Source: Nanobdellota archaeon
Lineage (GTDB): Archaea > Nanobdellota > Nanobdellia > Woesearchaeales > JAHIVG01
NCBI GenBank assembly: GCA_018816705.1
Contig: JAHIVG010000111.1
Location: 1-35,159, forward strand
Direction of reading: 5' to 3'
DNA: 35,159 nt
Positions 3,576 to 24,452 of the stretch are shown piece by piece. Under the pieces are notes generated by a model. That model ran no database searches and had not been told where the DNA came from. It worked only from the letters and a program-made list of their open reading frames with translations. A program made the position numbers and the translations under genes. Numbering within the stretch: the first letter of the stretch is position 1; every line of letters starts with the position of its first letter.

Positions 3576-3658
3576 GCGGCAGTAGTCTAATGGTAGGACA
3601 CTACCCTGCCAAAGATTGTAGATCGGTGGTAATCGGGGTTCGAATCCCCGCTGCCGCA
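3576..3658 (+). tRNA. tRNA-Gly(GCC), one intron
   Basis: Acceptor GCGGCAG/CTGCCGC, D stem GTCT/GGAC, anticodon stem CTACC/GGTGG, T arm CGGGG TTCGAAT CCCCG. Confidence 0.93.
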
Positions 3659-16415: not shown

Positions 16416-18926
16416 CTAGACTGTGTCGTCATCAACGGTGTCGTCATCAACGGTGTCGTCAACAACGGTGTCGTCCACTACTGGGACAGGCACTCCTACT
16501 GAGATGTCGCTCAGGGTCGTACCAGACACATCCACTTCGTCGCCTGTCAGCTGGGTCGCCCAATCAGTGTACTTGGCGAGCACGTGAGCTGCCCTTCGCG
16601 TATCCATCGCGCTGTAACCAGCAACAAGCATCGCTACGTTGTCACCGTTCATGTACAGCTTGATCTTCGCGTGGTTCGGCTGGAAGTCCTTGGCGCACGG
16701 GTCAGGGTCTCCCATCAGGGTCTTCGCTGCGCTGTTCACGCAGGGACCGCCTACGACAATCGCATTCACAGCGGTTATGTCGCTGACCTCGGTGTCGTAC
16801 TTGACTGCAGTCACCGGTATTGGCACTGGCTCCTTGGTCGTGATGTCACCACCGCTTCCTCCAGATGATGTCGCTCCGCTCGTCACGAAGAACGCTGCGG
16901 TCACTTGGTCATCCGGGTAGGTCCAGGTCGCATCATACTGGCCTGTTGTGGGCTGGTCGTACTTGTTATAGACACCAAACCTGGTGGAATAACCGATGTA
17001 GACATCCTTGTCGCCGTCCTTGATACCTGTGCCGGATGCCTGACTGTCGTCGAGGAATCCAGTCATTGAATTGATCTGCAGCTTACTGGACGAGTTGTCT
17101 CTGGTGAAGTTCACCGTCATCGTGTCTCGGACACTCGAGTCTTCGGTTGGCTCTGACTGCAACGTCATCGTGGCCATAGGCGTAACGTTGGTGAAGGTCA
17201 GTTTCGCACCATACTCCGTGTAGATGTAGTTACGCGAAGTTCCGATAACGATATCGTTTGTGCTGTCCGCTCCGCCAGTTACAGCATATGCAGTGCCTTG
17301 CAATGTCAAGGTCCCTGCACCAGTTGCGTCGTAGTTGACCTCGTACGTCTCGCCGCTGAACATGTCCTTTATCTTGTAAAGGTTGTCAGCGTTGTTCTGG
17401 CCCGTGAACTTCACGACATAGCCATAGCCGTACTCAACCCCGTCACCTATCATACCATACTCATTCTTGCTCAGGTTGACGGTTCCGCCGTTGTTCACCT
17501 TGATGGGCCTTAGGGTTGAACCTGATAGCTCACCAAGCATGATCAATCCTGAACCTGAATGCCATGAGAAGGTATCCATGTTCAGTTGGTTTTGATCCTT
17601 GTTCTTGAACTTGACCCTGTACGAGTTAGAGCCAGAGGGAACTATGGTGATATCCTCTGTATCCCCCACTTCCAGGCCCTTGAACTCAAAGTCGAATCCG
17701 TCCAAGAACATGTTGCCTGCCTTGCCATACAGCGCATCTGCAACAGCGCTCATGGTCTCGCCTTCAGCGAGATAGATATCATCGTCAGGCGTCATGTTGA
17801 TCTCGATGGCGCTGATTGATGTATCCGCATCATTTGCCAGCATGCCGTCCAGATTTGACTTGATCGACAGCTTCATCCAATCTAGTGATTGGCCGTTGAC
17901 CTTGACCGTGCCCACAGTGGTGTTTGCACTGAAGGTTCCAGCGTCCTCGAGCTCGACCTTGTTCGCGCCCAGGTAGAACTCTACCTTGTCGCCTTGGCCT
18001 GATTCAGCCAGGTTCTGGGCCAGGATGGTCTTGACACCGATGTCTGTCCCATCTGCCAACTGTTCGGTCTCTGACGCTTGTAGGCTGTTGGTGGTCTCGC
18101 CGTTCACGATGAATCGTGCTGTTGTCGCGCCGATGTAGTCTGCCTTGACCCTGTACTCCTTGTCACCCACTGTGACTACCTTCTCTTCGCCTTCCTCAAG
18201 GGTCTCGGTCTTGGATCCACCCATCAATATTAACTTGATGTAGTATGGGCTTGTGTGGTCTGCCCTCTGGATGGTGAACTCCTTGCCTAACAGGGTCAAT
18301 TTCTTGTCCCTGATGTCCTCGAGGTAGTTGCCGTTGGTGTCGTGGTCTGACTTCAGGGCCGGTGTGAACTGCACCTTATAGACATACGCGTCATGGTCCT
18401 GAGAGAACTTGACATGCGCAGCCGGCGTCTCTGTGTCAGTAGGGTCGTTCTGGTCTGTCCTGAAGAAGACAGTCCCGTTACCTAGAGCTATTGACTGACT
18501 GACTGTGACAGTCCCGAACTCGTTGGCGATGGTCGTGTCCTTCAAGGCTGCCAGGTCGCTTCCTGTTACGGAATGTATACCTGTTGACTTAAGGCCCTCG
18601 CTCAGCTCGAGCTTGTTAGTGCTCTGCTCAATCTTCTTGGCATCCCCAGCGACAGTTATCGTGGAATCGTCTCCGGTATCCACAACCACTGTCTTGAATG
18701 CGGCTGCCTGTAGCGCTCCCATGATGTTGGTAGCACCGATCGAATCAGCAGCTTTTGCGTTCTCACCGACCACGATTACGCCGTTGAAGACACCATCATT
18801 GTCTATAAACATCGGCTTTGGGAAATCAGCCATGTCAGCTGCTAATGCACCAGCCATGGTTGCACCCATCATCGCGACGCCAGTGCTGAACGCCATTATC
18901 CTTTGTATTGTCTTACGCACTCTCAT
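16416..18926 (-). CDS. S-layer protein
   Basis: N-terminal signal peptide; repeated NAIVVGGPCVNSAAK and GVIVVGENAKAADSIGATNI segments typical of archaeal S-layer proteins; Asp/Val/Thr repeat tail. Confidence 0.88.
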   Translation of the reverse strand: MRVRKTIQRIMAFSTGVAMMGATMAGALAADMADFPKPMFIDNDGVFNGVIVVGENAKAADSIGATNIMGALQAAAFKTVVVDTGDDSTITVAGDAKKIEQSTNKLELSEGLKSTGIHSVTGSDLAALKDTTIANEFGTVTVSQSIALGNGTVFFRTDQNDPTDTETPAAHVKFSQDHDAYVYKVQFTPALKSDHDTNGNYLEDIRDKKLTLLGKEFTIQRADHTSPYYIKLILMGGSKTETLEEGEEKVVTVGDKEYRVKADYIGATTARFIVNGETTNSLQASETEQLADGTDIGVKTILAQNLAESGQGDKVEFYLGANKVELEDAGTFSANTTVGTVKVNGQSLDWMKLSIKSNLDGMLANDADTSISAIEINMTPDDDIYLAEGETMSAVADALYGKAGNMFLDGFDFEFKGLEVGDTEDITIVPSGSNSYRVKFKNKDQNQLNMDTFSWHSGSGLIMLGELSGSTLRPIKVNNGGTVNLSKNEYGMIGDGVEYGYGYVVKFTGQNNADNLYKIKDMFSGETYEVNYDATGAGTLTLQGTAYAVTGGADSTNDIVIGTSRNYIYTEYGAKLTFTNVTPMATMTLQSEPTEDSSVRDTMTVNFTRDNSSSKLQINSMTGFLDDSQASGTGIKDGDKDVYIGYSTRFGVYNKYDQPTTGQYDATWTYPDDQVTAAFFVTSGATSSGGSGGDITTKEPVPIPVTAVKYDTEVSDITAVNAIVVGGPCVNSAAKTLMGDPDPCAKDFQPNHAKIKLYMNGDNVAMLVAGYSAMDTRRAAHVLAKYTDWATQLTGDEVDVSGTTLSDISVGVPVPVVDDTVVDDTVDDDTVDDDTV
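16423..16476 (-). repeat. 15-nt tandem repeat coding for acidic C-terminus (VDDDT)n
   Basis: gtgtcgtcatcaacg repeated about 3.5 times with minor changes. Confidence 0.85.
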
Positions 18927-22478: not shown

Positions 22479-22553
22479 ACCTGTGAGAAGGGAATTTGTA
22501 CTAATGTAAGTGGCAGGTAGTGAACAGATATAGAAAAAATGCGGGGAAAGGGA

Positions 22554-22592
22554 CTCTCTCACTGGCGTTCGGAGCATTATCGCCCGCCAATA
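22554..22592 (-). other. tRNA-Leu(CAG) T-loop intron (39 nt)
   Basis: GAGGG|TTCG|AAT|ATTGGCG...CGCCAGT(G)|AGAG|AGT|CCCTT; splicing gives TTCGAAT. Confidence 0.82.
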
Positions 22593-22624
22593 TTCGAACC
22601 CTCGTAAGCACTAAGCTACACGGC

Positions 22625-22640
22625 TTCTCCTGCTATGCAA
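22625..22640 (-). other. tRNA-Leu(CAG) anticodon-loop intron (16 nt, 37/38)
   Basis: CACGG|TTCA|GGT|TGC-ATA-GCA|GGAG|AAG|CCGTG; one A.G mismatch in central helix. Confidence 0.8.
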
Positions 22641-22656
22641 CCTGAACCGTGCCCGT

Positions 22657-22704
22657 TTGGTCGAAAAACCCGAGTTTTTCGAGCTCGAAAATCTCTGATT
22701 TTCG
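22657..22704 (-). other. tRNA-Leu(CAG) D-loop intron (48 nt)
   Basis: GGTC|AAC|GAAAA...TTTTTC|GACC|AAA; splicing gives GGTCAAACGG, identical to the uninterrupted D-loop of tRNA-Leu(UAG). Confidence 0.92.
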
Positions 22705-22726
22705 TTGACCGCTCCGGCATCCCCGC

Positions 22727-22775
22727 ATGCAAAGCGAGCGGGGGCCCAGCAATCTCTGATTGCTCGTGTCCCCGC
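22727..22775 (-). other. tRNA-Leu(CAG) leader hairpin with upstream copy of the acceptor strand
   Basis: GCGGGGACACGAGCAATC-AGA-GATTGCTGGGCCCCCGCTCGCTTTGCAT directly before GCGGGGATGCC. Confidence 0.7.
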
Positions 22776-22807
22776 AAGTATGCTTGCTTCATGAGAAAAT
22801 CAATTAG

Positions 22808-22815
22808 TATAAATA
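22808..22815 (-). promoter_or_regulatory. TATA-like box for tRNA-Leu(CAG)
   Basis: tataaata (plus), 33 nt from the upstream acceptor copy. Confidence 0.4.
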
Positions 22816-22829
22816 TTTAATGAAAGTGT

Positions 22830-23138
22830 CTATTCTAAAGGCTCCTCAACGAGCCCGCCGATGTCATCTGCATTCGCTGTAGCCATTTCAGGGGCATAAT
22901 ATTCATTCTGTGTATACACCTTTCCAGGGTCATTGTACATTATCATGCCGCCTTTGTTCAATCTTCGTTCTATGCACCCGCCCGGCCCTAGCATGCACGC
23001 CGCTAACGAGGTTACAGCAGCAAGACCTAATGTAATCTTGAGAGTCATGAAAAGACCCTTCCCGAAGCGGCTTGGTTCAGGTTTCGCTTCCTGTTTTTCT
23101 GGCTCATAATTTCCTGATGGTAGGTTTGCATATAACAT
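22830..23138 (-). CDS. small putative lipoprotein
   Basis: Hydrophobic segment ending in a lipobox-like LAAC; 102 aa. Confidence 0.55.
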   Translation of the reverse strand: MLYANLPSGNYEPEKQEAKPEPSRFGKGLFMTLKITLGLAAVTSLAACMLGPGGCIERRLNKGGMIMYNDPGKVYTQNEYYAPEMATANADDIGGLVEEPLE

Positions 23139-23172
23139 TTTAGGATGGATAGATTAGATGGATATTTATGTT

Positions 23173-23556
23173 TTACCCTGTTTTCTCAATCCCTTTAAGA
23201 ACCTTCATCGCCCCCTCGGCCTTCTCAACCGGCACGAAGAGGTGGTCATGATGGAACGCAGAGACTGTATTGACGCTGATGCCCGCCTCTGCCAGCTTCT
23301 CGGTGATCTTGGCCAGGAAGCCCACAGCCTCGAGGTCGGAGTGCACTGTCAACGTTATCCACGACCAGGCCCCATCATATTCTATCATCTTCTTGTCCGC
23401 AATCTCTTTCCTCAGGATGAGCGTCGTGCCCTCCTCTTCCTCGAACACCAGCACAGGCATTAGCGAAGGGTCGAAATCGGCCTTGCAGAAAACGTATTCA
23501 CCCTTGTTGAGCTTCGGGCTCATCGAGTTCAGCAGTGTCTTGAGGTCTTTTATCAT
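23173..23556 (-). CDS. ACT-domain protein
   Basis: WSWITLTVHSDLEAVGFLAKITEKLAEAGISVNTVSAFHHDHLFVP. Confidence 0.85.
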   Translation of the reverse strand: MIKDLKTLLNSMSPKLNKGEYVFCKADFDPSLMPVLVFEEEEGTTLILRKEIADKKMIEYDGAWSWITLTVHSDLEAVGFLAKITEKLAEAGISVNTVSAFHHDHLFVPVEKAEGAMKVLKGIEKTG

Positions 23557-23592
23557 TTCACTTCCTCCGTTACCACATAATTTTAGCGTGGC

Positions 23593-24174
23593 TCATTTTT
23601 CCACCAGCTTGATGATTGTCTCTTCACCGAAAACCACTAGACCCTTTATTGCATTTAAGGCTACCTTGTCCTCATTTTTGATGTTGCTCTTGAAATCTTC
23701 TCTTGTCTGGTATATAGGATGCAATTTCTTTACGTTTATTAGATTAATTTCTTCGATTTCCCTCTTTAATTGTGCAAATCGTTTTCGGTCTGTGATGAGA
23801 AGGACGTCGATATCCTTGGCCTCGTGTTTCTTCAGGACTGAACCGAACAAGATGGCAGAATCAGCGCTCTTGATTTTCCTGATGTCAGTGACCCATCTCT
23901 TCACGTGAGCTGTGACATGTTCGACCTCCCTCTTCAATAGGAATCTGATATACTGCTGCACATAATCATCCTCGATGTTCAAGGTATAATAAATTGCCCT
24001 GCCCATTAGTTTTGATTTGAGGATGTTCCCCTTCTCAAGTCTCCTTGCGATTTTCAGGGCACCCATCGCACTGATTCCGATATCCTTCGCGATACTGCTG
24101 GCATTATAATCTCTTTCAGGATTCTTGAAGATCCTCAGGACGAAATCCATTTCGTTGGCAGTGATATCCTTCAT
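23593..24174 (-). CDS. winged-helix plus nucleotidyltransferase-fold protein
   Basis: N-terminal HTH (SSIAKDIGISAMGALKIARRLEKGNIL); AILFGSVLKKHEAKDIDVLLIT NTase motif. Confidence 0.85.
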   Translation of the reverse strand: MKDITANEMDFVLRIFKNPERDYNASSIAKDIGISAMGALKIARRLEKGNILKSKLMGRAIYYTLNIEDDYVQQYIRFLLKREVEHVTAHVKRWVTDIRKIKSADSAILFGSVLKKHEAKDIDVLLITDRKRFAQLKREIEEINLINVKKLHPIYQTREDFKSNIKNEDKVALNAIKGLVVFGEETIIKLVEK

Positions 24175-24265
24175 TTAAACTCACAGTTTATATATATAAA
24201 CTCAAAGTTTAAATAGTTTTCGGTTTCAAAGTTGGCATGATTAGAAAAAAATGCGGAGAGCAGGG

Positions 24266-24285
24266 CTCTCGACACCGAAAGGCGC
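24266..24285 (-). other. tRNA-Leu(UAG) T-loop intron (20 nt)
   Basis: GCAGG|TTCG|AAG|CGCC-TTTC-GGTG(T)|CGAG|AGC|CCTGC; splicing gives TTCGAAC. Confidence 0.87.
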
Positions 24286-24317
24286 TTCGAACCTGCGTAG
24301 GGACTAACCCATCAGGT

Positions 24318-24335
24318 TTCACATGACAATGCCAC
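24318..24335 (-). other. tRNA-Leu(UAG) anticodon-loop intron (18 nt, 37/38)
   Basis: TCAGG|CTTA|GGG|TGGC-ATT-GTCA|TGTG|AAA|CCTGA; one U.U mismatch in central helix. Confidence 0.8.
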
Positions 24336-24373
24336 CCTAAGCCTGACCCGTTTGACCGCTCCGGCATCTCCGC

Positions 24374-24421
24374 AAGTAAAGCATGGACATCCAAGCAATC
24401 TCCGATTGCTCGTGTCTCCGC
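24374..24421 (-). other. tRNA-Leu(UAG) leader hairpin with upstream copy of the acceptor strand
   Basis: GCGGAGACACGAGCAATC-GGA-GATTGCTTGGATGTCCATGCTTTACTT directly before GCGGAGATGCC. Confidence 0.7.
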
Positions 24422-24444: not shown

Positions 24445-24452
24445 TATAAAAA
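24445..24452 (-). promoter_or_regulatory. TATA-like box for tRNA-Leu(UAG)
   Basis: tataaaaa (plus), 24 nt from the upstream acceptor copy, not from the tRNA body. Confidence 0.5.

Follow-up and report, generated by a model that had tools for sequence, protein, structure and literature searches.

Hairpin-bearing leaders of two tRNA-Leu genes in a Nanobdellota archaeon as probable miniature palindromic insertions

The window analysed here, the whole 35,159-nt stretch of contig JAHIVG010000111.1 from a Nanobdellota archaeon, belongs to a genome assembly of 1.74 Mb in 114 contigs and carries two tRNA-Leu genes on its minus strand. ARAGORN, and Rfam at its gathering score, overlook both genes because of their introns; we regard both as real because ARAGORN names each of them once the inserts are removed by hand. 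The two tRNAs are collinear and complete, being neither split nor permuted. The features of the two loci are listed below, with T denoting the end of the gene that is copied and T' the complement of T.

22540..22726, minus strand: tRNA-Leu(CAG), with apparent D-loop, anticodon-loop and T-loop introns; the spliced form is tRNA-Leu(cag) by ARAGORN
22659..22706, minus strand: insert of 48 nt in the D-loop of Leu(CAG), containing two perfect hairpins (CGAAAATC-AGA-GATTTTCG and TCGAAAAAC..GTTTTTCGA), as compared with the uninterrupted D-arm of Leu(UAG)
22727..22737, minus strand: spacer of the Leu(CAG) unit, TCGCTTTGCAT, which is like the spacers of the tRNA-Thr and tRNA-Asp units described below
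22738..22743, minus strand: T' of the Leu(CAG) unit, CCCCGC, an intact complement of the outer copy
22748..22764, minus strand: hairpin of the Leu(CAG) unit, AGCAATC-AGA-GATTGCT
22769..22775, minus strand: outer copy T of the Leu(CAG) 5' end, GCGGGGA, identical to 22726-22720
22808..22813, minus strand: TATA-like TTTATA, 5' of the Leu(CAG) unit
24252..24373, minus strand: tRNA-Leu(UAG), with apparent anticodon-loop and T-loop introns; the spliced form is tRNA-Leu(tag) by ARAGORN
24374..24380, minus strand: spacer of the Leu(UAG) unit, TTTACTT
24381..24387, minus strand: decayed T' of the Leu(UAG) unit, TCCATGC
24394..24410, minus strand: hairpin of the Leu(UAG) unit, AGCAATC-GGA-GATTGCT
24415..24421, minus strand: outer copy T of the Leu(UAG) 5' end, GCGGAGA
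24445..24450, minus strand: TATA-like TTTATA, 24 nt 5' of the Leu(UAG) outer copy

Two other tRNAs with apparent introns lie on the plus strand of the window, one at 1005-1110, which has inserts in its anticodon and T loops and no ARAGORN match, and one at 3576-3658, which ARAGORN detects and cannot name. An 836-aa protein encoded at 16416-18926 (minus strand) matches the S-layer outer domain (PF05124).

Both tRNA-Leu leaders open with an exact copy of their own gene's first 7 nt. That of Leu(CAG), 49 nt long, runs from T (GCGGGGA) through CACG, the hairpin, GGG/C, T' (CCCCGC) and the spacer to the tRNA, which starts at 22726 with the same GCGGGGA. The 48-nt leader of Leu(UAG) has the same layout with a decayed T', and its tRNA starts at 24373 (GCGGAGA). 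The general plan is T-hairpin-T'-spacer-T-tRNA. The original prediction had described leaders of 48-49 nt that begin with a copy of the gene's own acceptor strand, and a TATA box 24 nt from the upstream copy at Leu(UAG) (TTTATA, 24450-24445); both descriptions are accurate. It had also taken the two copies to have co-changed. The G/A difference between them does match the respective acceptors, but we explain this match by each copy having been made from its own gene. The T' and spacer of Leu(CAG) were additional to that prediction, as were the similar 5' and 3' units at other tRNAs of the genome. In both the window and the genome, the motif CACGAGCAATCNGAGATTGCT is confined to the two Leu leaders when up to three mismatches are allowed (0.01 matches expected in the window). 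Perfect hairpins in the window number nine, compared to four in shuffled sequences, and four of the nine fall within the two Leu loci.

Similar units stand at other tRNAs of this genome. The leaders of tRNA-Thr(TGT), on contig C35, and of an Asp-like tRNA, on contig C95, contain a 10-14 nt copy of the gene's own 5' end, together with a hairpin, a T' mismatched at one position and, as spacer, TCGCTTCGCTC or TCGCTACGCTC. The mirror image of this arrangement is found at the 3' end of a tRNA-Ser on contig C6, in the order tRNA-TAGCGAAGCGAA-GCCGGGACTGGG (T')-hairpins-CCCAGTCCCGGCGT (copy). Its spacer is reversed relative to the RNA; therefore, the orientation of the unit tracks the end of the gene, not the transcript.

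The units extend well past this genome. We read 111 tRNA-Leu genes from Woesearchaeales, the order to which this genome is taken to belong because the named relatives with the same hairpin are Woesearchaeota. Eight of these genes are preceded by an exact copy of 7 nt, where shuffling the acceptors would give 0.3, and a phylum-wide pattern scan of 371 genomes returned about 27 tRNA-Leu units, mostly in Woesearchaeales, with a few in another order of the same class. Among 73 tRNAs of four genomes, a copied 3' end occurs downstream of 11 (0.27 expected), mostly in genome G171, and a 5' copy with one mismatch allowed occurs at 6 (2.1 expected). The excess of 5' copies in this sample is small, yet the Thr and Asp cases of the present genome are clear. 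Some of the G171 3' copies form exact 97-bp or 113-bp tandem repeats; at two loci (L143 on G171:C27 and L188 on G171:C53), such repeats lie 3' of tRNAs and each terminates with the copied 3' end of the tRNA. The units are 43-75 nt long, non-coding and palindromic, with inner stems mostly of 6-9 bp, and the exact duplications at Leu 5' ends measure 7-14 nt. T' is absent or weak in several units, among them that of Leu(UAG) and some of the G171 3' copies.

The positions of promoter elements indicate where the unit lies with respect to the functional gene. In genes that lack a unit, TATA-like boxes peak at -35 from the tRNA; in genes that have one, the peak is at -35 from the outer copy, and no TATA-like box was found at -65 to -25 from the tRNA. 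Because the box is spaced normally (about -35) to the outer copy, we conclude that the unit entered between the promoter and the tRNA. The outer copy thus marks the original start position. The original prediction had this copy as the 5' end of the transcript; promoter spacing argues for a start near it, short of proving that the two coincide. The inner copy is the authentic acceptor strand, and outer copies drift: six Leu units have differing copies, and in all of them the inner one pairs fully with the 3' strand of the acceptor, whereas the outer one is mismatched in five.

Several observations bear on mobility. In genus g37, orthologous tRNA-Leu loci, grouped by homologous flanking proteins, include both occupied and empty members, and occupied loci of different groups have a common core, CAnnCAAAAAT...ATTTTTGGGCCGTCAC. 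This core recurs at the 3' ends of tRNAs, in one case on the opposite strand (L288) and in another with a 14-nt duplication (L283), and it also lies 5' of a gene for a 297-aa protein, where a 13-nt duplication, AAAATTCGGAGGC, is accompanied by T' (L275). At the start of another protein gene (L278), a related hairpin sits between two copies of the ribosome-binding site plus ATGCCT. Two-unit arrays in which the copy of the tRNA end is repeated occur in G036, with different hairpins, and in G018, with one hairpin and different spacers. The occupied and empty loci, the cores at varied sites, the units at protein genes and the arrays therefore favor a mobile element over an RNA device specific to tRNAs. 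The suggestion in the original prediction that an element had been inserted with a short duplication is supported by the same facts and by the 3' mirror units. As in MITEs and other palindromic elements, there is a short non-coding palindrome with a flanking target duplication, related copies reside at unrelated sites, and orthologous sites are found both occupied and empty. The tRNA end is duplicated on both sides of the insert, as it is by tyrosine recombinases; inserts at 5' ends measure about 35-60 nt and those at 3' ends about 60-130 nt, and a kilobase insert with an integrase gene was not found at either. In g37, T' shows an identical mismatch at several loci, and the copying of T' from the target is therefore not fully consistent. 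Nor would an ordinary target duplication be expected to yield a T'.

We consider it probable that the leaders are miniature palindromic insertions, each derived from a short, non-coding hairpin element. More generally, the units are most likely mobile elements of a miniature palindromic type, which copy a gene end both directly and inversely, a view built on sequence comparison, mostly of metagenome assemblies. Such an element would insert at the target, with joining producing the direct copy of the target end and fold-back copying yielding the inverted copy, T'. The unit would then be transcribed as a 5' leader. Pairing between T and T' would keep the outer copy out of competition for the 3' strand of the acceptor, and the leader would be cut off by RNase P before the inner T. 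Later, the outer copy would drift and the hairpin would be either kept or lost to decay, as with the decayed T' of Leu(UAG). The fit of T' to its own T agrees with this model: its summed score is 143, compared to a mean of 114 and a maximum of 136 in 5000 permutations of T, a comparison that gives no clean probability because the units are related by descent. The genome encodes RNase P RNA (156 bits), Rpp30 and a tRNA splicing endonuclease, so neither leader removal nor intron removal poses a problem; maturation without RNase P, as in Nanoarchaeum equitans, is ruled out by the same RNase P components.

Could the leader instead be a functional RNA? On this hypothesis, T-hairpin-T' forms a conserved minihelix resembling a tRNA, which would guide 5' processing or regulate the maturation of tRNA-Leu, and T' would alternate between the outer strand and the authentic one. 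Some of our results point in this direction. Where the first 8 nt of the outer and inner copies differ, T' fits the outer copy better in 12 of 13 units, for example in G015 (GCGGGC/GCCCGC), G196 (GCGGGT/ACCCGC) and G266; in several units the difference is confined to position 8. Given this tracking, the hairpin is either recent or maintained. Stems are kept while loops differ between G003 and G130. In partition-function folding, T' raises pairing of the authentic acceptor from 0.00 to 0.69 in Leu(UAG) and from 0.01 to 0.87 in G227, and raises it also in G196, G266 and G015; no such rescue was seen in G357, G403, G451, G182 or G171. The units are sporadic, however: most Leu genes do without them, as do orthologous loci in the same genus. 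The 3' mirror units, with their spacer reversed relative to the RNA, the units at protein-gene starts and the decay of T' in Leu(UAG) also fit poorly with such a role, which we consider unlikely. Two causes put forward in the original prediction, a mimic of the 5' end and a decoy for the 3' acceptor strand, are not supported as the origin of the leaders: most relatives lack the copy, units exist where there is no tRNA 5' end, and the copy no longer matches the tRNA in G015, G196, G266, G115, G248 and G104.

A second alternative takes the outer copy as the real 5' exon, with the hairpin and the inner copy spliced out by the tRNA splicing endonuclease. The enzyme and many tRNA introns are present in the genome, an outer copy at +1 agrees with the spacing of the promoter, and in folding the outer copy often pairs with the acceptor 3' strand. 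The five mismatched outer copies noted above speak against this alternative, since in those units it is the inner copy that pairs fully. Moreover, the inner gene is complete without splicing and has its own full acceptor 5' strand. Hand inspection revealed no canonical bulge-helix-bulge junction, only relaxed look-alikes in some units, and like units are found at protein-gene starts. We therefore hold splicing at this position to be quite improbable.

It is very improbable that the leader is the remnant of a second, tandem tRNA-Leu gene after an internal deletion: T and T' do resemble an acceptor stem, and the genome does have, at another site, a degenerate tandem tRNA-like copy (L240, near position 1500, before a tRNA-like gene with a hairpin insert in its D-loop), but T' reaches beyond the acceptor, complementing positions 8-12 of tRNA-Thr and tRNA-Asp and the T-stem of tRNA-Ser, extensions that no tRNA 3' or 5' end has, and the hairpins have no similarity to a tRNA body and also occur at protein genes. 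Three other ideas were set aside. No interpretation of the internal loop as a kink-turn, a bulge-helix-bulge or a C/D box was consistent across units; a T-loop intron in the G171 3' copies was dropped because the T-loop-like string is antisense; and a double snap-back at replication would make the spacer the reverse complement of the promoter side, which, by eye, it is not.

MITEs, the Rickettsia palindromic elements and the double-hairpin elements of fungal mitochondria are likewise short, non-coding, palindromic and dispersed, and some of them insert in RNA genes. The present units differ from these in that the target end is also inverted, making the target part of the hairpin. Literature searches returned no description of such units. 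The nearest case they returned is mobile-element integration at tRNA-Thr-F of Caldiarchaeum, where a complete tRNA gene is preceded by a 5' tRNA fragment that retains the original upstream sequence (Sugahara et al. 2012, PMC3293823). There, too, an insertion separates the 5' fragment from the complete tRNA, but that insert spans 1.8 kb and has a predicted recombinase, whereas the units described here are 35-60 bp, non-coding and hairpin-forming, include an inverted copy of the target, and sometimes form arrays (compare PMC3293823). Partial copies by or near complete tRNA genes are also known as tRNA gene fragments; unlike our units, those are left behind when phage or island-sized DNA integrates (van der Gulik et al. 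2023, PMC9897764). Finally, work from 2010, as it is cited in PMC4033280 and PMC4090602, found near-identical short inserts in different tRNAs, with the mechanism unknown. As cited there, those inserts are bulge-helix-bulge introns within genes, whereas the units here are located at gene ends, duplicate that end and need no splicing.

The same elements may give rise to tRNA introns, the mechanism of whose gain in archaea has been described as unknown (PMC4090602). In several Woesearchaeota, tRNAs have 49-nt inserts in the T-loop that start with the leader-type hairpin. A scan of named genomes for the exact hairpin gave matches in Woesearchaeota and was informative mainly for tRNA introns. The T-loop inserts of a tRNA-Val (L011, 2999-3019 and flanks) and a different tRNA (L013, 7019-7039 and flanks), from two Woesearchaeota assemblies, are identical over 49 nt, and a family of near-identical inserts occupies two tRNAs of ARS1199 (L012, L016). 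The D-loop insert of Leu(CAG) is possibly the same kind of element as the leader units, placed inside the gene. We propose that insertion in a loop may produce introns and insertion at an end may produce leaders or trailers. The fuller proposal, that Nanobdellota hairpin elements copy the target end directly and, by a fold-back step unknown in other transposons, inversely, and that they create new introns when they land in tRNA loops, is one that we advance tentatively and think could well be wrong. If true, it would mean that a large group of uncultured archaea hosts a class of mobile elements that alter the edges of essential genes yet do not destroy these genes, because the gene end is recreated. 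It would also provide a concrete, testable source of archaeal tRNA introns and partial tRNA copies, and it would mean that promoters in such genomes can stand 45-60 nt of structured insert away from the tRNA. Clusters of nested perfect hairpins similar in style to the tRNA units, such as CACAAAATCTTTGATTTTGTTGTG and GCAAGACTCCGTCTTTGC, also occur in intergenic DNA at L231 (G000:C27) and L233 (G000:C33).
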